Below are positions 33,908-42,308 of a DNA stretch of 64,000 nt, in pieces. Under the pieces are notes generated by a model. The model worked only from the letters and a program-made list of their open reading frames with translations, had not been told where the DNA came from and made no database searches. This DNA is from Edaphobacter paludis (GTDB lineage Bacteria; Acidobacteriota; Terriglobia; Terriglobales; Acidobacteriaceae): positions 3,038,001 to 3,102,000 of the forward strand of contig NZ_CP121194.1 in assembly GCF_039993895.1 (NCBI RefSeq), in the 5' to 3' direction. The stretch's first letter is position 1, and each line of letters starts with the position of its first letter. The position numbers and the translations under genes were made by a program.

Positions 33908-34128
33908 CAAGCGGCATCACTGACATGCAAGATGCAGGGAGATCTCCGCAAGAAAGTAAGCCCTTCAATCTATCTTCGACCTAGCAACCCGCTCTCGATT
34001 CCCGGCTTCTTACTAACTGGGAACGAGATTAGCCGCGAGTTTCGATCTGAGACTGTCTATCTCCCGTACGTAAGCCGCCTGATTAACCAAGCGTGGCTCA
34101 GACCAGCCCAGACTCATGAGGTAATAAC

Positions 34129-34536
34129 GTGACATTTTTTCGCATTACACTCCCACGCATATCTATGATTGCGTGCTTAGCACTGACTTCTGTCCTATTG
34201 ATGCCAACAACATCGTTCGGCCAGGACCAGACCAGTGCTCCCACTTCTACCAGTCCAGACAACACTGCAAGGAACAAAGCACACCACAATACCGCCGATC
34301 AGCAATCGAACGCGACCTCTGACCGCATGCTCACAAAGCACATCCGTCAGTCATTGATCGCAGACAAGTCGCTTTCCATGTACGGCCACAACGTCAAGAT
34401 CATTACGCGCGATGGAATGGTGACATTGAAGGGGCCCGTGCACTCGGAGGAGGAGAAGCAGACCATTGCCTCCAAAGCAGCAGAGGTCGCCGGCGGTGCG
34501 GACAAAGTCACCAATCAACTTACGGTCAAACAGTAG
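34129..34536 (+). CDS. Exported BON-domain protein (135 aa)
   Basis: The signal peptide spans residues 1-31 (ends TSFGQD). A Ser/Thr/Asn-rich linker and one BON domain (about residues 65-135; LTKHIRQSLIADKSLSMYG, VTLKGPVHSEEEKQTI) follow. BON domains bind phospholipid surfaces and stabilise the envelope, as in OsmY. The GTG start has GAGG about 8 nt upstream; an ATG 12 codons later is the alternative. It lies 39 nt upstream of the glycine-zipper stress protein, so the pair is probably one envelope- or osmotic-stress operon (inference). Confidence 0.9.
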   Translation: MTFFRITLPRISMIACLALTSVLLMPTTSFGQDQTSAPTSTSPDNTARNKAHHNTADQQSNATSDRMLTKHIRQSLIADKSLSMYGHNVKIITRDGMVTLKGPVHSEEEKQTIASKAAEVAGGADKVTNQLTVKQ

Positions 34537-34575
34537 GACCTGCTCGCTCATAAAGCGTTGCAGAAGGAGATTTAT

Positions 34576-35244
34576 ATGGCAGGGAAAAACACAGCAGCAT
34601 TCGGCATTTACTCAACTAGAACGGCCGCAGAAGCCGCAGTCGATCAACTCACCGCAGCGGGCTTTTCGCATCAGGACGTCTCGGTTCTCATGTCCGATAA
34701 GCAGGGATCGAAGGACTTTGCCACCGAGAAGAACACCAAGGCTCCTGAAGGCGCCGCAACTGGCGTAGGCGTTGGCGGAGCAGTTGGCGGAACGCTCGGG
34801 CTGCTCGCCGGCATCGGCGCTTTGGCTATTCCCGGCGTCGGTCCGCTGATTGCAGCAGGACCGATCATGGGCGCACTCGCGGGTCTGGGCGTCGGCGGAG
34901 CAGTGGGTGGTCTTGTGGGAGCCCTGGTTGGAATGGGCATTCCCGAGTATGAAGCGAAGCGTTACGAAGGCCGCGTTAAGGATGGCGGTATCCTCGTCTC
35001 GGTTCACTGCGATAGCTCCGAAGAGGTCTCCCGTGCGAAGGATATCCTCAAGGAAACGGGCGGTGAGGACATCGCCTCCTCCGGCGAAAAGTCCGTCAGC
35101 ACCCATGGTGTAGAAACCGACCGCCGGGATACGGAGCGCGTCCACACAAACACCCTTCACACCAACCGTCTGGACAACGAAGATGTCGATGGCAATGTGC
35201 TTGTCGAGCGCGATGTTGTCATTGAGCGCGTTAACAAACGGTAG
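34576..35244 (+). CDS. General-stress (YflT-like) protein with glycine-zipper region (222 aa)
   Basis: Residues 5-45 match the YflT/general stress protein 17M type (AFGIYSTRTAAEAAVDQL...DVSVLM). A central Gly/Ala-rich glycine-zipper (about residues 60-125; GVGVGGAVGGTLGLLAG) probably inserts in a membrane. The C-terminal part repeats the ferredoxin-like element (GGILVSVHCDSSEEVSRAKDIL) and ends in a charged tail. A strong AAGGAGAT precedes the ATG at 34576. Probably stress-induced together with the BON protein (inference). Confidence 0.88.
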   Translation: MAGKNTAAFGIYSTRTAAEAAVDQLTAAGFSHQDVSVLMSDKQGSKDFATEKNTKAPEGAATGVGVGGAVGGTLGLLAGIGALAIPGVGPLIAAGPIMGALAGLGVGGAVGGLVGALVGMGIPEYEAKRYEGRVKDGGILVSVHCDSSEEVSRAKDILKETGGEDIASSGEKSVSTHGVETDRRDTERVHTNTLHTNRLDNEDVDGNVLVERDVVIERVNKR

Positions 35245-35271
35245 AGCTCGCTTTAGAAGCGTTCCACCGTA

Positions 35272-35302
35272 GAGTACGCATCCTCAAAAGGGATGCGTAC
35301 TC
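35272..35302 (+). terminator. Terminator of the BON/stress-protein operon
   Basis: 12-bp perfect stem GAGTACGCATCC/GGATGCGTACTC with loop TCAAAAG, followed by TCATTTAAG. It insulates the upstream operon from the YeiH locus. Confidence 0.85.
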
Positions 35303-35436
35303 TCATTTAAGTCTCTCCGAATACTCCCAAAAAGGCTGATTTGAACCCTGATGACCTCGATCCCCGAAGTCGCTATCCCCCCGGATTCAAAGCCGTTCAC
35401 CGTCTCGAACCCAGCTGATTAGGCCCCACAATCCGC

Positions 35437-35465
35437 TTGACTCCAGTTAGAATTCCTTCTATCTT
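35437..35465 (+). promoter_or_regulatory. Sigma-70-type promoter P1 upstream of the YeiH locus
   Basis: TTGACT, exact 17-nt spacer, TATCTT. The first ATG downstream (35472) begins 6 nt after the -10 box, so it coincides with the expected transcript start. Confidence 0.65.
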
Positions 35466-35471
35466 AAGCAA

Positions 35472-35582
35472 ATGGCTAGACTCCCTTCGGGTTGAGTCAG
35501 TCATAACGAAGTCCACCCACTTCGTTGCTTTACCGGAATACCCACGCAACAGCCCCCACCGCGCTGCGTGGGTTTCCTCTTT
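35472..35582 (+). ncRNA. Candidate small RNA or leader with leaderless 7-codon ORF
   Basis: The segment between P1 and a terminator contains a leaderless-type mini-ORF (35472-35495, MARLPSG), a hairpin with GACTC/GAGTC arms (35479-35498) and a perfect AACGAAGT/ACTTCGTT hairpin (35505-35526). It ends in the terminator stem ACCCACGCA/TGCGTGGGT (35540-35573). It is about 110 nt, well structured, and matches no riboswitch family I recognise. It could be a free small RNA, a leader attenuator for the YeiH operon, or both. Confidence 0.4.
35540..35582 (+). terminator. Terminator T1 upstream of the Cys-rich ORF
   Basis: ACCCACGCA (35540-35548) pairs with TGCGTGGGT (35565-35573) around a 16-nt loop, followed by TTCCTCTTT. 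The outer stem ACCCACG is shared with T2 at 35780-35822. Confidence 0.7.
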
Positions 35583-35620
35583 AAGATCCGCCATAAGTCC
35601 AACAATTTACTCGCTAGACC

Positions 35621-35649
35621 TTGACGCCTCCGCCCAAACCCTCTATCCT
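35621..35649 (+). promoter_or_regulatory. Sigma-70-type promoter P2 of the Cys-rich ORF
   Basis: TTGACG, exact 17-nt spacer, TATCCT. The ATG of the Cys-rich ORF starts 6 nt after the -10 box, so the predicted mRNA is leaderless. No Shine-Dalgarno is present, consistent with this. Confidence 0.65.
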
Positions 35650-35655
35650 CACTTC

Positions 35656-35742
35656 ATGGGATTGATGCACATCGCGGCTTGTACCTGTTGCCTCTGTTGT
35701 ATGGGCAATGGCTGCTGCTGCGTCGGATCTTCCCCAACCTAA
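35656..35742 (+). CDS. Leaderless cysteine-rich mini-ORF, candidate attenuator peptide (28 aa)
   Basis: 28 codons encode eight cysteines: CTCCLCC at residues 9-15 and CCC at 20-22, ending VGSSPT. It starts at the predicted transcript start of P2, has no ribosome-binding site, and stops 38 nt before an intrinsic terminator. A CTAAGC/GCTTAG hairpin (35739-35744 with 35762-35767) covers the stop codon. The arrangement resembles the polycysteine leaderless ORFs that act as cysteine-responsive attenuators in mycobacteria (known), placed here ahead of a putative sulfur-anion exporter (inference). It could also be a functional metal-binding peptide. Too short for codon statistics. Confidence 0.55.
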   Translation: MGLMHIAACTCCLCCMGNGCCCVGSSPT

Positions 35743-35779
35743 GCGAATAGTAAAAATTTCAGCTTAGACACTTCAGGAA

Positions 35780-35822
35780 CCCACGTATCAGCGTAAATCG
35801 CGATACGTGGGTTTTTTCTTTT
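35780..35822 (+). terminator. Terminator T2 between the Cys-rich ORF and the YeiH operon
   Basis: CCCACGTATC (35780-35789) pairs with GATACGTGGG (35802-35811) over a 12-nt loop, extended by flanking AA/TT, then TTTTTTCTTTTT. A textbook intrinsic terminator, well placed to act as an attenuator for the downstream genes. Confidence 0.85.
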
Positions 35823-35849
35823 TCCGAACCAAGTGCAGGAGACGACATC

Positions 35850-35996
35850 ATGGCAATCTCTCAAGACCACCACACACCGGCCAAACCTCACGCTGCCAGT
35901 CGGCTGTCCATCAATGTCGACCTGATCGCCGTCACCATTGCGCTCACCCTCGCGGCGCTCATCCGTTTCAACATCATTCCCTCCATCCCGTTTTAA
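35850..35996 (+). CDS. Single-helix membrane microprotein upstream of YeiH (48 aa)
   Basis: ATG with GGAG 9 nt upstream (CAGGAGACGACATC). The N-terminal 20 residues are hydrophilic (SQDHHTPAKPHAASR). Residues about 23-40 form one hydrophobic helix (DLIAVTIALTLAALI), and the peptide ends NIIPSIPF. It sits 28 nt ahead of the YeiH start and directly after terminator T2, so it is the first gene of the attenuated transcript. I know of no named family. It could be an accessory subunit or regulator of YeiH (inference). It is not a broken YeiH N-terminus, because YeiH has its own complete first helix. Confidence 0.7.
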   Translation: MAISQDHHTPAKPHAASRLSINVDLIAVTIALTLAALIRFNIIPSIPF

Positions 35997-36024
35997 CCTG
36001 TTCCCTCGCCCCAGCCCTAACACA

Positions 36025-37122
36025 ATGTCCACCCATACTCTACCCAACCCGACCGCCAGTCCGGCATCTTCCCCTGCCGCTCGTTTCGTCAGGACGATTC
36101 CCGGTATGGCGTTGCTCTTCGGTGTTGGCCTTCTGGGCAAGCTCTTCGAACACGTCATCGCCATCCTGCACGCCCAGCATCCTGCGTGGCCTCTTCCGCA
36201 CATCGAGTACGTTCTCTGGGCCATCATCCTCGGCCTGGTCATCAGCAACACCTTCGGCGTCGCTCGCATCTTCCAGCCCGGCGTGGCTACCTACGAGCTT
36301 TGGCTCAAGCTCGGCATCGTTCTGATCGGTGCCCGCTTCCTGATGCAGGACCTCTTTCACATCGGCGGTATGACGCTCGTCCTCGTCGCCATCGAGCTCG
36401 TTCTTTCGCTCACCGTCATGACCCTGCTCGGGCGCATCTTCAAGCTCCCGCCCAAACTCACCAGCCTGCTTTCGATCGGCAGCAGCGTCTGCGGAGTCAC
36501 CGCCATCATGGCCACCCAGGGAGCCATCGACGCCAGCGAAGAGGACACCTCGACCGCCATGGCCGCTATCCTCACGCTCGGCGCCATCGCTCTCTTCACC
36601 TTCCCTGCCATCGGCCACGCTCTCCACATGAGCCAGCAGTCCTACGGCATTTGGGCCGGGCTCGCCGTCGATAACACCGCCGAAGCGACCGTCACCGGAG
36701 CCATCTACGGCGACGCCGCCGGACGCTTCGCCGTCCTCTCCAAAACCGCGCGTTCGTCCTTCCTCGGCTTCGTCGTCCTCGGCTACGCCGTCTACTGGGC
36801 ATCGCAAGGGAAGGCGGCCGCGGTCGAGAACAAAGCGCTCTTCCTCTGGCAGAAGTTCCCCAAGTTTGTCCTCGGCTTCATCGCCATCTCAGTGCTCGCA
36901 ACAGCAGGCTTCTTCACCCACGGCCAGCTCAACAGCCTCTCCAATCTCTCCCGCTGGGCCTTCCTGCCCGCCTTCGCCGGTGTCGGCGTTCGCACGAATC
37001 TAAGAGACCTCGTCGGTCAGGGCTGGCGTCCTCTGATCGTCGGCATCCTCGGCGAAGTCTTCATCGCCCTCGTCACTCTCGGCCTCGTCTACTGGAGCTA
37101 CCACCGCGGAGCGATCCAATGA
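36025..37122 (+). CDS. YeiH family putative sulfate/sulfur-anion exporter (365 aa)
   Basis: A polytopic inner-membrane protein of the YeiH (Cons_hypoth698) family, annotated as putative sulfate exporters. About ten hydrophobic segments are seen, with family blocks LGLVISNTFG, KLGIVLIGARFLMQD, SIGSSVCGVTAIMAT and AVDNTAEATVTGA. The ATG at 36025 was chosen because it leaves a short hydrophilic N-terminus before the first helix. In enterobacteria yeiH is tied to sulfur-anion stress through the LysR regulator YeiE (known, details limited). No LysR gene is adjacent here; the Cys-rich attenuator may replace it (inference). Its stop overlaps the start of the CCCC-tail peptide. Confidence 0.92.
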   Translation: MSTHTLPNPTASPASSPAARFVRTIPGMALLFGVGLLGKLFEHVIAILHAQHPAWPLPHIEYVLWAIILGLVISNTFGVARIFQPGVATYELWLKLGIVLIGARFLMQDLFHIGGMTLVLVAIELVLSLTVMTLLGRIFKLPPKLTSLLSIGSSVCGVTAIMATQGAIDASEEDTSTAMAAILTLGAIALFTFPAIGHALHMSQQSYGIWAGLAVDNTAEATVTGAIYGDAAGRFAVLSKTARSSFLGFVVLGYAVYWASQGKAAAVENKALFLWQKFPKFVLGFIAISVLATAGFFTHGQLNSLSNLSRWAFLPAFAGVGVRTNLRDLVGQGWRPLIVGILGEVFIALVTLGLVYWSYHRGAIQ

Positions 37123-37244
37123 CGGCTCTTTCAAATACGACATCAAACGCCCGGGTGCCCCGTCCTTCGCAGCCTTACCGTGAAGGGCTGGATGTAAATT
37201 CTCGCCCCAGAATCATGCCCCAAAGCTGTTGTTGTTGCGCCTAA
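37119..37244 (+). CDS. 41-aa peptide with C-terminal SCCCCA, coupled to YeiH
   Basis: Its ATG overlaps the YeiH TGA (ATGA, 37119-37122), the classic translational-coupling arrangement. The peptide is hydrophilic, rich in Arg, Pro and Ser (NARVPRPSQPYREG), and ends MPQSCCCCA: four consecutive Cys one residue before the C-terminus. It has no hydrophobic helix. The end could bind a metal or thiophilic anion, be lipidated, or report Cys-tRNA supply to downstream mRNA (all inference). The coupling and the second poly-Cys tract at one locus make chance less likely, but the ORF is short. Confidence 0.55.
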   Translation: MTALSNTTSNARVPRPSQPYREGLDVNSRPRIMPQSCCCCA

Positions 37245-37342
37245 GCAAGAACCAGCTCCCCTAAAAAACTTAAAGAAGAACGCGCACCCTCGCACCTTAA
37301 CCAACCAGCGAGGAGCGCTCCCACATATATTTCGGAGACCTT

Positions 37343-40300
37343 ATGCACTACTTAATCACTAAAAAAATCCCGGTTATCGCCGCAATCCTAGCGATCTTTA
37401 TCACCATCGCCGCCCACGCGCAGATCGTCGGTGGAACCCTCTCCGGCACCATCACCGACACCACAGGCGCGGCTCTCGCCAACGCAAAGGTCCTCGTCCA
37501 CAACGACGAAACCGGCAACGAGCGCAATCTCACCACCGCATCCGACGGCCGCTACTCCGCGCCCTCAATCCCCGTAGGCACCTACACCGTCACCGCAGAA
37601 CTCCCCGGCTTCAGCCCGGCACACCGCGCTGAAATCGCGCTCACCGTAGGCCAGAGCAAGCAGATCGACCTCACCCTCTCGCTCGACTCAGTAGCGCAGC
37701 AGGTCACCGTGCAGGAGACGCCCTCGGTCGTCAACACTTCTACTCAGCAGACCTCTGGCCTCGTCGACGAACGCCAGATCAAGCAGCTTCCTCTCAACGG
37801 CCGCAGCTACGACCAGCTCATCACTCTCAATCCCGGCGTCGTCAACTACACCGGCCAGCGCTCCGGCACCATCGGCACTTCAAACTCATCTGTCGGCAAC
37901 ATGTTCGCCATCTCCGGCCGCCGCCCGCAAGACAATCTCTTCCTGCTCAACGGTGTTGAGTACACCGGCGCCTCGCTCATCAACGTGACCCCTGGTGGCA
38001 CCAGCGGTCAACTCCTCGGCGTCGATGCCGTCCGCGAGTTGAACGTCGTCAGCGACACCTACTCCGCCAGCTACGGTAAGCGCCAGGGCGCGCAGATTTC
38101 AATCGTAACCGCGTCAGGCACAAATCATCTGCACGGCTCCGCGTATGAATTCATTCGCAACTCCGCTCTCGACGCCCGCAACTACTTCGATCAGGCCGCC
38201 ATCCCCGAGTTCCAGCGCAACAACTTCGGCGGCTCGCTCGGCGGCCCCATCAAGAAGGACAAGCTACTTCTCTTCGCCAACTACGAAGGCTATCGACAGA
38301 ACCTCGGCCTCTCCGATGTCACCCTCGTCCCGGATAACGCCTCTCGCGCCGCCGCGGTAGCCAGCGTTAAACCTCTTCTCGCCTTGTGGCCCGCAGCAAA
38401 CGGCCCCGAACTCGGCAGCGGTATTGCCCTCGCCTACTCCAGCCCCATGCAGCACATCCGCGAAGACTTCGGTACTACGCGCTTCGACTACAACATCAGC
38501 CCGAAAGACCTCTTCTTCAGCGTCTACACGATCGACGACTCCACCGCCAACACGCCCACGCAAAACCCCCTCTCGCTCATCAACGAGAGCCTGCGCGAAC
38601 AGGTCCTCAGCGCACAGGAGCAGCACGTCTTCTCCGCGCAACTGCTCAACACCGCTCGCGTCGGCTTCTCGCGCGCCTCTTTCTTCTTCATCGGAGCAAC
38701 GCCAGTGAATGTTCCCGGCTGGGTAGCAGGCAAACCCATCGGAGCCATCGTCATCGCAGGCAGCACCGCCAGCAACGGCTCATCGCAGATCACAGGAGCA
38801 GGCGGCAACGTAGGCTCCGATAACACCACCACCCGCAACCTCGTCACCTTCGACGATCACATCTTCTGGAGCCACGGACGCCACCAGATCGAAGCGGGCG
38901 GCTGGATTCAGCGCTTGCAATCAAACGACAACCTCGCTCAGAACCAATACGGGCAAGCCTCCTTCGCCTCGCTCGCAACCTTCCTGCAAGGCACCGTCAA
39001 GACCTTCACCGTAGTCCCCGCGCCCACCGAACTCGGCTGGCGCTCCTTCCTCGGCGCAGGCTACATCGAAGACACCATCCACTTCACCCCACGCCTCGAA
39101 GTTCGCGCTGGCTTTCGCTTCGAATCCACCAACGGCTTCAACGAAGCCCAGGGCCGTGCCTCTAACTACGCCTTTACCAACGGCGTCATCAACACCAATC
39201 CAACCACCGGCTCGGCAGCCCTCAGCACCAACCGCGCCAGGTTCCTCCCCGAACCGCGCGTCGGTCTCGCCTGGGACGTCCTCGGCAACGGAAAAACCGC
39301 CGTCCGCGCAGGCTTCGGCGTTCATCGCTCGCTGCTCGATAATCTCGACTACCGCCTCGACCAGTCCGCCCCCTACAACACCACACTCTCGCTCTCGAAC
39401 GTCCCCGTCTCCAGCCTCAACATCAATGCGAACACCAAACCCTCAGCCAGTTCGCTCGTCTCCCCTTCCAGCGTTCAGCCCGACATCTACACGCCTACCG
39501 TCCTAAGCTGGGACCTCCGCGTCGAGCAGCAGCTAGCGCCCAACACCTCTCTCACCGTCAGCTACGTCGGCTCGCATGGTTATCACCAGATCCTCTCTCA
39601 AGATCTGAACGAACCGATCCCGGTCACGCTCCCCAACGGCACCGTCTTCTTCAACACCACGACGAAAGCCAACCCACTCGTAGCCAACACCACTTCATGG
39701 GTCTCGCAAGGCATCAGCAACTACAACGCCCTCGAAGTAGATCTGCACCGCAACTTCGCCAATGGCTTCCAGCTCCGCGGCAACTACACCTGGTCTAAAA
39801 ATCTCGACAACGGCTCGGCATGGAACACCAGCGTCAGCGCCAACACGCCCGCCTTCACCATGTATCCCGCGAACCCCAACCTCGACTACGGCCCATCAGC
39901 CAGCGACATCCGCAACCTCGCCTCGATTAACGGCACGTACGATCTTCCCTTCGGTGCAGACCACCGCTTCGGAGCCCACCTCAATAACTTCGCCAACCGC
40001 ACCGTCAGTGGTTGGACGGTCAGCGCCATCGCAGCCATCCAGTCCGGCTTTCCCTTTTCGCCGCAGCTCGGCTACAACCCCACTGGCAGCGGAGACACCC
40101 GCAACCCAGTCCGCCCCAATATCAACCCGAACTTCCACGGCAACCTCTACCCGCACACGCCGACCCAGTTCTTCAACGCAGCCGCCTTCAGCGCACCCGC
40201 CTACGGAACCTTCGGCAACCTTGGCCGCGACACCCTCGTCGGCCCCAACCTCACTAACCTCGATCTCTCGCTTCATAAATCAACCCAGATCAGCGAGCGC

Positions 40301-40510
40301 CTCCACGCCCAGTTCCGCGCCGAGTTCTTCAACATCCTCAACCACACCAACTTCGCTACACCCAACCCGGTCGTCTTCTCCTCCGGCCCATCACAGGGAA
40401 CCACGGCCAACCAGAATGCACCCGTCGTCGCCAGCCCCACCGCCGGCGTCGTCACCTCCACCGCCACCAGCTCTCGCCAGATCCAATTCGGACTGAAGCT
40501 GCTCTTCTAG
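37343..40510 (+). CDS. Oar-like TonB-dependent receptor with CarboxypepD_reg domain (1055 aa)
   Basis: An outer-membrane receptor of the large acidobacterial Oar-like family. The signal peptide spans residues 1-26 (ends AHAQ). The carboxypeptidase-regulatory Ig-like domain follows at about 29-115 (GTLSGTITDTTGAALANA). A plug occupies about 125-250 (RQIKQLPLNGRSYDQLI), then a 22-strand-type barrel ending in LKLLF with the terminal Phe of outer-membrane barrels. GGAG precedes the ATG. These receptors are usually linked to glycan or siderophore uptake; the ligand here is unknown. It follows the YeiH locus by about 100 nt, so a sulfur-compound ligand is possible but unproven. Confidence 0.92.
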   Translation: MHYLITKKIPVIAAILAIFITIAAHAQIVGGTLSGTITDTTGAALANAKVLVHNDETGNERNLTTASDGRYSAPSIPVGTYTVTAELPGFSPAHRAEIALTVGQSKQIDLTLSLDSVAQQVTVQETPSVVNTSTQQTSGLVDERQIKQLPLNGRSYDQLITLNPGVVNYTGQRSGTIGTSNSSVGNMFAISGRRPQDNLFLLNGVEYTGASLINVTPGGTSGQLLGVDAVRELNVVSDTYSASYGKRQGAQISIVTASGTNHLHGSAYEFIRNSALDARNYFDQAAIPEFQRNNFGGSLGGPIKKDKLLLFANYEGYRQNLGLSDVTLVPDNASRAAAVASVKPLLALWPAANGPELGSGIALAYSSPMQHIREDFGTTRFDYNISPKDLFFSVYTIDDSTANTPTQNPLSLINESLREQVLSAQEQHVFSAQLLNTARVGFSRASFFFIGATPVNVPGWVAGKPIGAIVIAGSTASNGSSQITGAGGNVGSDNTTTRNLVTFDDHIFWSHGRHQIEAGGWIQRLQSNDNLAQNQYGQASFASLATFLQGTVKTFTVVPAPTELGWRSFLGAGYIEDTIHFTPRLEVRAGFRFESTNGFNEAQGRASNYAFTNGVINTNPTTGSAALSTNRARFLPEPRVGLAWDVLGNGKTAVRAGFGVHRSLLDNLDYRLDQSAPYNTTLSLSNVPVSSLNINANTKPSASSLVSPSSVQPDIYTPTVLSWDLRVEQQLAPNTSLTVSYVGSHGYHQILSQDLNEPIPVTLPNGTVFFNTTTKANPLVANTTSWVSQGISNYNALEVDLHRNFANGFQLRGNYTWSKNLDNGSAWNTSVSANTPAFTMYPANPNLDYGPSASDIRNLASINGTYDLPFGADHRFGAHLNNFANRTVSGWTVSAIAAIQSGFPFSPQLGYNPTGSGDTRNPVRPNINPNFHGNLYPHTPTQFFNAAAFSAPAYGTFGNLGRDTLVGPNLTNLDLSLHKSTQISERLHAQFRAEFFNILNHTNFATPNPVVFSSGPSQGTTANQNAPVVASPTAGVVTSTATSSRQIQFGLKLLF

Positions 40511-40561
40511 CCCCATCGCTAAACCAACCGAATCAACCCAAGTCCCCATCTTCGCGACAGA

Positions 40562-40588
40562 CCACCGTCGCCAAGGTGGGGTTTTTGC
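40562..40588 (+). terminator. Terminator after the TonB-dependent receptor gene
   Basis: CCACC (40562-40566) pairs with GGTGG (40575-40579) around GTCGCCAA, then GGTTTTTGC. Confidence 0.6.
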
Positions 40589-40622
40589 ATCCCACCCCAA
40601 AGTAAACTAACCCAAGCGCCTC

Positions 40623-42308
40623 ATGCCCTTCGAAGCCCCCAACACCGGCCCGGCAACTCCTCCGTCAGAAAACCCCAGCGGCTTCGCGCCGCTCCGCATC
40701 CCACTGTTCCGCGACCGATGGATCGCCAGCACCATCTCCTCGGTCGGCACCTGGATGCAGGACACAGCGGGCACCTGGTTCATGACCTCGCTCACCGCGT
40801 CTCCTCTGCTCATCGCCCTGATGCAGACCGCGGCCAGCCTCCCCGTCCTTTTCTTCGGCCTCCTCGCCGGGGCCACCGCCGACATCTTCGACCGCCGCAA
40901 GCTCCTCATCTTCTGGCAGGCATGGATGCTCGTCTCCGTCGGCGTCCTCGCCATCCTCACCTTCCTCGGCTACGTCTCTCCGTGGACGCTGCTCGGTCTC
41001 ACCTTCATGCTCAACATCGGCTCCGCCATGAACAACCCGGCATGGCAGGCCATCATCCCCGAACTCGTCCCCCGCGACCTCATCCCCGACACCGTCGCCC
41101 TCAACGCCGCCAGCAACAACCTCGCCCGCGCCCTTGGCCCCGCGCTCGGCGGATTGATGGTCGCAGGCTTCCAGCGCATCTACACCGGCGCAGGTTCGGT
41201 CTTCCTGCTCAACGCGCTCTCGTATGCCGCCGTCATCTGGGTGCTCGTTAACTGGAAGCGCACGCCGCTCTTCAAATCCGTTCTCCCCTCCGAGCGCATT
41301 GCCGGCTCCATCCGCTCCGGCCTTCGCTATATCCGGTACGCACCCGACGTCCGCGCCTCGCTCATCCGCGCCTTCACCTTTACCTTCTTCGTCTCGGCCA
41401 TCTGGTCGCTGCTCGCCGTCGTCGCCCTGCGCGACCTCCATCAAGGAGCGCTCGGCTATGGCATCCTCAACGGCTCCCTCGGCCTCGGTGCACTGGTCGC
41501 AGCCACGTCGCTTCCCCGCATCCGCCGCCGCTTGTCGGCCGACAGCATTATCGCCTTCTCAACGAGCTACATCGTCGCCGATCTCCTCATCCTCGCCTTC
41601 ATCCATATGCCCGCAGTCATCATCCCCAGCCTCATCCTCTCGGGCTTCGCCTGGACCAGCACCATGTCCAGCCTCAATACCTCCGTTCAACTCGCCGTCC
41701 CACCCTGGGTACAGGCTCGCGCCCTCGGAACCTACCTCATGACCTTCCAGGGAGGACTCGCTCTCGGCTCCGTCCTCTGGGGCGTTCTCGCGTCCCACTT
41801 CTCCACCACAACCTCGCTCACGACCGCCGCTTGCGGTCTTGCTCTCAGCTTCCCTCTCACCCGACGCTTCCACATCCTGCAAGGTCCCGTCCCCGACCAC
41901 ACTCCCTACCAATGGAAGCGTCCCGCGCCCCAACCCATTCCCTTCCCCAGCATGGACTCCGAGCCAGCCGACGACCTCAACTCCGCCGGTCCCGTCCGCA
42001 TCTCCGTCGACTACCGCATCCCTGCCGAAGACTACGCCGAGTTCACTCAGGCCATCCACCAGCTACGTGGCGTCCGCCTCCGCGACGGCGCTATCCGCTG
42101 GGGAATCTATCGCGACGCCACTGACCCTGAGCACCTCAATGAAACCTTTGTCATGGAGTCGTGGCTCGACTACCTCCGCTCTCGCGAGCGCGTCACCGCC
42201 GCCGACGAACAGATCCGCGAGCGCGTCCGCGCCCTCCACCGCGGCTCCGAGCCACCCCGCGCCACCTTCCAGATCTACGCCAAAGAGATAACCGCCCCTG
42301 GCGACTAG
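40623..42308 (+). CDS. MFS exporter, MFS_3/EntS-like (561 aa)
   Basis: A major facilitator of the MFS_3 type (relatives include the enterobactin exporter EntS). About eleven to twelve hydrophobic segments occupy residues 35-420, with GLLAGATADIFDRRKLLI as the loop 2-3 motif. The C-terminal 130 residues form a soluble ferredoxin-like domain (VRISVDYRIPAEDYAEF...FVMESWLDYLRSRERV) resembling antibiotic-biosynthesis-monooxygenase/NIPSNAP folds, as in many MFS_3 proteins. The substrate is unknown. It may work with the neighbouring outer-membrane protein or TonB receptor in small-molecule export or uptake (inference). Confidence 0.9.
   Translation: MPFEAPNTGPATPPSENPSGFAPLRIPLFRDRWIASTISSVGTWMQDTAGTWFMTSLTASPLLIALMQTAASLPVLFFGLLAGATADIFDRRKLLIFWQAWMLVSVGVLAILTFLGYVSPWTLLGLTFMLNIGSAMNNPAWQAIIPELVPRDLIPDTVALNAASNNLARALGPALGGLMVAGFQRIYTGAGSVFLLNALSYAAVIWVLVNWKRTPLFKSVLPSERIAGSIRSGLRYIRYAPDVRASLIRAFTFTFFVSAIWSLLAVVALRDLHQGALGYGILNGSLGLGALVAATSLPRIRRRLSADSIIAFSTSYIVADLLILAFIHMPAVIIPSLILSGFAWTSTMSSLNTSVQLAVPPWVQARALGTYLMTFQGGLALGSVLWGVLASHFSTTTSLTTAACGLALSFPLTRRFHILQGPVPDHTPYQWKRPAPQPIPFPSMDSEPADDLNSAGPVRISVDYRIPAEDYAEFTQAIHQLRGVRLRDGAIRWGIYRDATDPEHLNETFVMESWLDYLRSRERVTAADEQIRERVRALHRGSEPPRATFQIYAKEITAPGD

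Follow-up and report, generated by a model that had tools for sequence, protein, structure and literature searches.

Ribosome-mediated transcription attenuators of the trp and his type are composed of four RNA segments (1–4), with the sensor codons placed in a short ORF. The leader analysed here resembles that type in its short sensor ORF and its predicted segments 1–4, but shows no Shine–Dalgarno sequence, would lack a 5′ UTR and has Cys as its sensor residue. Leaderless polycysteine short ORFs are known from mycobacteria (Canestrari et al., 2020, as related in PMC9031893, PMC9094748 and PMC13236596; a precursor is found in PMC4633059). The mycobacterial ORFs resemble the present ones in being leaderless (predicted here), in their contiguous Cys codons and in their position ahead of genes for Cys or sulfur metabolism; the likeness is one of description. 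They are reported to act by translation attenuation (PMC13236596), whereas the ORF here belongs to another phylum and is accompanied by an intrinsic terminator, which is conserved, and by a candidate antiterminator. Candidate leader peptides of actinobacterial cys operons, which carry Cys runs near the stop codon 5′ of cys genes, resemble the class B leaders described below; that source reports no conserved terminator hairpins in the Mycobacterium cys regions, whereas such hairpins were present here in classes A and C (PMC1262725). In Rhodobacterales, the uORF uORFC-8-2 ahead of cysS likewise combines tandem Cys codons with a U-run terminator and has been proposed to act by ribosome-mediated attenuation, but its target is cysS and it has two conserved Cys codons (PMC8632094), in contrast to the sulfate-assimilation targets, the three to 11 Cys codons and the leaderless geometry found here. 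No Cys-leader device of Acidobacteria was seen among the papers listed in searches of an open-licence library, the broader searches included. Relative to the mycobacterial devices, novelty appears to lie in the phylum, in the use of an intrinsic terminator and in the extension to several operons.

The window, i.e. the whole stretch of 64 000 nt that was analysed, belongs to the genome of Edaphobacter paludis (4.04 Mb, single contig). The promoter, the 28-codon ORF with eight Cys codons and no Shine–Dalgarno sequence, and the T-run terminator given in the preliminary description were all read in the sequence, and the microprotein and yeiH-like genes that it placed 3′ of the leader were recovered from the ORFs and a PF03601 match (Table 1). 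The −35 and −10 boxes are separated by 17 nt and the −10 box lies 6 nt from the ATG at 35656, 5′ of which no Shine–Dalgarno sequence was visible; the mini-ORF encodes MGLMHIAACTCCLCCMGNGCCCVGSSPT, and its stop codon is separated by 37 nt from the terminator stem. Taken alone, neither the promoter-like sites (two, compared with 0.7 expected) nor the terminator-like sites (four, compared with 1.6 expected) in 35001–37200 were much above chance, so the case for the leader rests on its conservation among relatives. Rfam covariance models gave no match in window positions 34000–41000 up to an E value of 1, and in five related loci they detected one tRNA and three candidates below the gathering score, none of them at a leader; a riboswitch or T-box was dropped on these grounds.

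Table 1. Features of the yeiH leader region in the window, and loci carrying related elements
Feature	Position	Strand	Remarks
sRNA-like unit	35470-35582	+	promoter TTGACT 35437-35442 and TATCTT 35460-35465; own terminator
Leader promoter, −35 box TTGACG	35621-35626	+	read directly
Leader promoter, −10 box TATCCT	35644-35649	+	read directly
Poly-Cys mini-ORF (sensor), putatively leaderless	35656-35742	+	28 codons, 8 Cys
Segment 2 (mini-ORF 3′ part), candidate antiterminator strand	35713-35726	+	RNA modelling; mismatches in the window pairing
Hairpin across the mini-ORF stop codon	35739-35767	+	CTAAGC 35739-35744 with GCTTAG 35762-35767; single-leader RNAfold
Intrinsic terminator (segments 3 and 4)	35780-35817	+	stem CCCACGTATC 35780-35789 / GATACGTGGG 35802-35811, then TTTTTT
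One-helix microprotein, 48 aa	35850-35996	+	SD-like CAGGAG upstream
yeiH-like membrane protein, 365 aa	36025-37122	+	PF03601 match
Second Cys mini-ORF	37119-37244	+	ends in SCCCCA; start codon overlaps yeiH stop
Outer-membrane protein, CarboxypepD_reg domain	37343-40510	+	PF13620, PF25183; 3′ of the second Cys ORF
sRNA-like unit, relatives	L051, L052, L053, L112-L114, L116, L117, L119, L122, L127-L130, L137		
sRNA-like unit, further copies	L110:2708-2820; L124:2808-2930		nearly 2 kb from the yeiH leader
Class B yeiH leaders	L149, L150, L153-L155, L157, L160, L177, L188		Cys run near or at the ORF end

The reading that best fits the sequence comparisons and the RNA modelling, and a probable one, is that a sulfate-assimilation regulon is controlled by leaderless attenuators in which the ribosome senses the cysteine supply. 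From the layout of the leader we infer that the transcript would begin at, or a few bases from, the ATG at 35656, so that a ribosome could start directly on its 5′ end. With ample Cys-tRNA, this ribosome would translate past the poly-Cys stretch, reach the stop codon and mask segment 2, the terminator (3:4) would form and transcription would end 5′ of the microprotein gene and yeiH. If charged Cys-tRNA were scarce, the ribosome would stall in the Cys clusters and open the mini-ORF's own 1:2 hairpin, and the freed segment 2 (approximately 35713–35726) would pair with the terminator 5′ arm (35780–35793), allowing polymerase read-through.

Conservation of the leader was assessed using YeiH searches of 150 genomes of the family, 51 of which contained a match at 1e-20, and of named genomes, from which the best 80 loci of 315 confirmed stretches were used; the best titled match was L110, an Acidobacteriales MAG with 90 % identity. 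A poly-Cys short ORF (≤45 aa, with CCC or two CC, ≤700 nt 5′ of yeiH) was present in the sense orientation at 45 of these best 80 loci, compared with four of 80 in the antisense orientation; at L115 and L183 the upstream sequence was shorter than 700 nt. At 32 of the 33 closest loci (the window and L110–L141, the exception being L123) a poly-Cys ORF was preceded by a TTGAC/TAnnnT promoter. Conservation of the Cys codons across related genomes, which the preliminary description had named as a point on which the attenuator could fail, was therefore found. The 32 leaders of this type (class A) include near-identical ones (L134–L136; L114 and L116). Their −35/−10 spacer was 17 nt in 31 cases and 18 nt in L119, the start codon was GTG in L118 and L126, and the −10 box lay 6–11 nt from the start codon in 31 of the 32, a distance that fits a leaderless start.

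A stricter scan (TTGAC, spacer, TAnnnY, 3–9 nt, start codon and poly-Cys ORF) of both strands of the 80 loci (1.55 Mb of strand) returned 38 matches, all of them in the sense orientation and upstream of yeiH: 26 lay within 700 nt and the other 12 at 2.1–4.3 kb. Terminators were located by script in 26 of the 32 class A leaders; the script took a wrong hairpin in L138 and found nothing in five leaders, and these other six terminators were judged by eye, the weakest being that of L125. The Cys codons of the 32 leaders were predominantly TGT (157 TGT and 106 TGC; UGU in 157 of 263), compared with one TGT and 33 TGC in the yeiH genes of L110–L141 (p 2.8e-11). This preference for UGU may raise the sensitivity to scarce Cys-tRNA or may reflect RNA pairing.

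Beyond the yeiH leader, the same genome contains three more poly-Cys ORFs, none of them mentioned in the preliminary description. The first, MVSPIICACCCCRMVTARCPR, is located 98 nt upstream of cysD in the cysD–cysN operon and 7 nt after a TATAGT box; it was found among short ORFs around sites of DNA patterns. The second, MAIFCASRCCMCCCDSVRLRLCPAS, was found through a PF01077 search and follows TTGACG, TATCCT and 7 nt, with a T-run hairpin behind it; in the operon downstream of MAIFCASRCCMCCCDSVRLRLCPAS, the gene for a NIR_SIR protein of 573 aa is accompanied by two siroheme genes. Since this protein scored below the cut-offs of all NCBIfam models of nitrite and sulfite reductases, the label ‘sulfite’ rests on context. 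The third begins on the yeiH stop codon and precedes the gene for the outer-membrane protein; an ORF with CC or more at the yeiH stop was seen at 18 of 33 loci, a count made without a control. As leader finders, the DNA patterns TGYTGYTGYTGY (52 sites in the genome, compared with 28 in the reversed control) and TGYTGYNNNTGYTGY (45 compared with 26) were rejected, most sites not being leaders.

The two sister leaders recurred in the family. cysD was present in 63 of the 150 genomes (at 1e-40) and a poly-Cys ORF preceded it at 15 of 30 loci examined (three of 30 on the reverse strand). The NIR_SIR gene was present in 97 of the 150 (at 1e-60), and a poly-Cys ORF preceded it at 19 of 30 loci, 15 of them with a promoter (three of 30 on the reverse strand), a leader count that includes L238, which lies at a contig edge and whose distance is unreliable. 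With the same type of sensor at the cysDN and the sulfite-reductase-like/siroheme operons, the YeiH-like protein would be induced along with sulfate assimilation when Cys is short. Conservation and the sister leaders thus lend strong support to the earlier proposal of a leaderless Cys-responsive attenuator, and the RNA modelling described below does so less firmly.

The function of the target is less clear. The preliminary description had called it a sulfur-anion exporter, which was not established: the protein matches PF03601 but reached only 111 bits with TIGR00698, the NCBI model of YeiH as a putative sulfate exporter, the cut-off of which is 232.6, and a sequence search at an E value of 0.01 yielded no relative with a solved structure. 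In Salmonella, yeiH is required for sulfite resistance and is called poorly characterised (PMC12880088). A protective exporter, in which YeiH would remove the sulfite of assimilation and be co-induced with sulfate reduction, has slightly less than an even chance of being the target and is compatible with the attenuator. Besides the Salmonella phenotype, gene order points this way. The ORFs were listed in five of the 12 loci with distant strict-scan leaders and Pfam domains in four (L145, L165, L168 and L174); in all four annotated loci a nitrite/sulfite reductase gene (PF01077) lies between the leader and yeiH, and in three (L165, L168 and L174) siroheme-synthesis domains do so as well. The NIR_SIR protein also co-occurred with strong YeiH matches (33 genomes, cut at approximately 1e-120), being present in 32 of these 33 genomes compared with 65 of the other 117 (Fisher p 1.5e-6, kinship ignored); for CysD the figures were 26 of 33 and 37 of 117 (Fisher p 1.4e-6, kinship likewise ignored). 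The score below the TIGR00698 cut-off argues against an exporter, and room for uptake is left by the genome, which lacks SulP and PHO4 matches as well as any CysTW-like permease scoring above the cut-off, yet encodes three TSUP proteins. A role in uptake, or a protective one while sulfate is being assimilated, would fit the co-regulation of yeiH with this pathway at least equally well. That YeiH is the sole sulfate importer was not concluded, in view of the three TSUP proteins and of three CysD-encoding genomes (G012, G019 and G044) that had no match to YeiH, SulP or PHO4.

Elsewhere in the genome lies the gene for another YeiH relative, distant at 32 % identity (G000:C1:3930811–3931596, minus strand). 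The microprotein had no Pfam or NCBIfam match; its 67 database homologues, probably including the query itself, were hypothetical where named, the closest named one being from Edaphobacter. A microprotein-like ORF with a similar C-terminal motif preceded yeiH at 57 of 81 loci, again counted without a control.

Whether the class A leaders have the pairing potential for antitermination was examined by RNA folding. The RNAalifold consensus of 20 group-1 and 12 group-2 leaders consisted of a self-hairpin of the mini-ORF and the terminator, with pairs changed on both sides at eight of 33 positions in group 1 and seven of 29 in group 2; among terminator pairs, two in A2 and two in A3 were changed on both sides. 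The hairpin across the stop codon, which occurred in many folds of single leaders, was absent from this consensus. The mini-ORF was more stable than peptide-preserving recodings (mean z −2.08, negative in 32 of 32). The preliminary description had reported no obvious antiterminator; modelling supplied a candidate, in which the 3′ part of the mini-ORF pairs with the terminator 5′ arm; in the window this helix contains mismatches. In the stall model, pairing of the 5′ arm was computed before its 3′ arm exists. The mean modelled pairing probability of the 5′ arm was 0.80 with the ribosome at the first Cys pair, 0.54 without a ribosome and 0.32 with the ribosome at the stop codon; the difference between the stalled and the stop-codon ribosome exceeded 0.2 in 31 of 32 leaders, and under modelled stalling the main partner was the 3′ part of the mini-ORF in all 32. 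The value of 0.80 for the real leaders compares with 0.55 when the segment was dinucleotide-shuffled and 0.69 for recoded ORFs with the peptide kept, and only 14 of the 32 leaders singly reached p 0.05 against shuffles.

Comparative tests of this duplex were mixed. Peptide-preserving recoding weakened it little (mean z −0.81). The 10-bp antiterminator helix of A2 was 77.1 % paired, compared with 25–42 % in slid versions, but its covariation was not above that of shuffles (77.7 %). In 29 class A leaders, own and cross-species duplexes were alike (−21.6 and −21.1), so this all-group swap gave no support for co-evolution. Sorted by group, class C leaders paired better with their own terminators (−16.3 kcal/mol) than with those swapped within the group (−15.5) or taken from other groups (−7.8), and G1 behaved in the same way (−17.3, −15.7 and −12.8), whereas in G2 the terminators of other groups were nearly as good (−13.6, −12.7 and −13.0); these means include L134–L136 and L141, whose arm was wrongly picked. 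The grouped test therefore favours co-evolution in G1 and in class C, whereas G2 lends it no support. Being related, the sequences are not independent observations, and the statistics ignore phylogeny. From the modelling taken as a whole, the antiterminator is likely to be real.

Class C, the kind of leader seen ahead of the nitrite/sulfite reductase gene at the annotated distant loci, comprised 16 leaders among the 80 yeiH loci, found by a motif-directed search that was built after seeing examples and run without a control; with the 45 loci of the short-ORF screen, 61 of the 80 loci carried a leader of either screen and 19 carried none. In class C, six pairs (UCUGGC/GCCAGA) were invariant in 16 of 16 leaders and the outer two varied. 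By eye, L168 and L174 retained the 8-bp pairing with both strands altered relative to the other class C leaders.

Class B leaders mostly have a TGnTAnAA-like −10 box approximately 8–12 nt 5′ of the ATG (by eye). No obvious intrinsic terminator was seen by eye in any of the nine class B leaders printed, in seven of the eight cysD leaders printed or after the second Cys ORF of the window, so another read-out must exist at these sites. Several class B and cysD leaders are C-rich downstream. These features favour an alternative in which the mini-ORF acts not through an antiterminator but via Rho or via translation of the gene that follows; a ribosome that stalls close to the Cys codons would then block Rho loading or open the next ribosome-binding site. 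Both variants have precedents, Rho having been suggested for actinobacterial cys leaders (PMC1262725) and translation attenuation stated for Mycobacterium smegmatis (PMC13236596). As an account of the mini-ORF, this is nevertheless unlikely, given that the class A and C terminators are conserved and complementary to the mini-ORF.

It is far less probable that the mini-ORF product is a functional Cys-rich microprotein which binds metal or takes part in redox reactions and acts in trans. The positions of the Cys clusters are conserved within groups, which speaks for such a peptide, but residues outside the clusters vary between groups and operons, and the class C peptide tail ISGQRSFRT coincides with near-invariant nucleotides that are complementary to the terminator. 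That a Cys-rich ORF happens by chance to lie between a promoter and a terminator of the ordinary kind, with which the near-expectation single-site scans would agree, is contradicted by the conservation and specificity of the comparative data and can practically be dismissed.

The attenuator reading can be extended to an Acidobacteriaceae RNA regulon responding to Cys-tRNA that would comprise cysDN, the sulfite-reductase-like/siroheme operon, the YeiH-like protein and the outer-membrane protein. The yeiH operon would then have two serial Cys checkpoints, the first leaderless and equipped with terminator and antiterminator, the other formed by the ORF that is coupled to the stop codon of yeiH; the YeiH-like protein would serve sulfur acquisition rather than plain export, and a dedicated neighbouring sRNA would add a further layer. 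That all of these parts hold jointly is a tentative proposal and somewhat improbable. If true, one amino-acid sensor would govern several unlinked sulfur operons. The role of YeiH-type proteins becomes testable as well, since regulation through Cys scarcity would link this branch either with the acquisition of sulfur or with protection while it is assimilated.

The sRNA-like unit upstream of the leader, likewise absent from the preliminary description, is 113 nt long, had a mean identity of 93 % across 14 loci and a fold z of −5.79, and matched no Rfam family. Its loops are C-rich (CCACCC and CCCCCACC). Under strict filters, a covariance model of the unit detected one copy in each of four of the 150 family genomes, all four belonging to the genus of the window and all four with the unit close upstream of yeiH. 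Applied to 26 sources (the window and 25 loci), the model gave four strong matches and, weakly, recognized six attenuator terminators.
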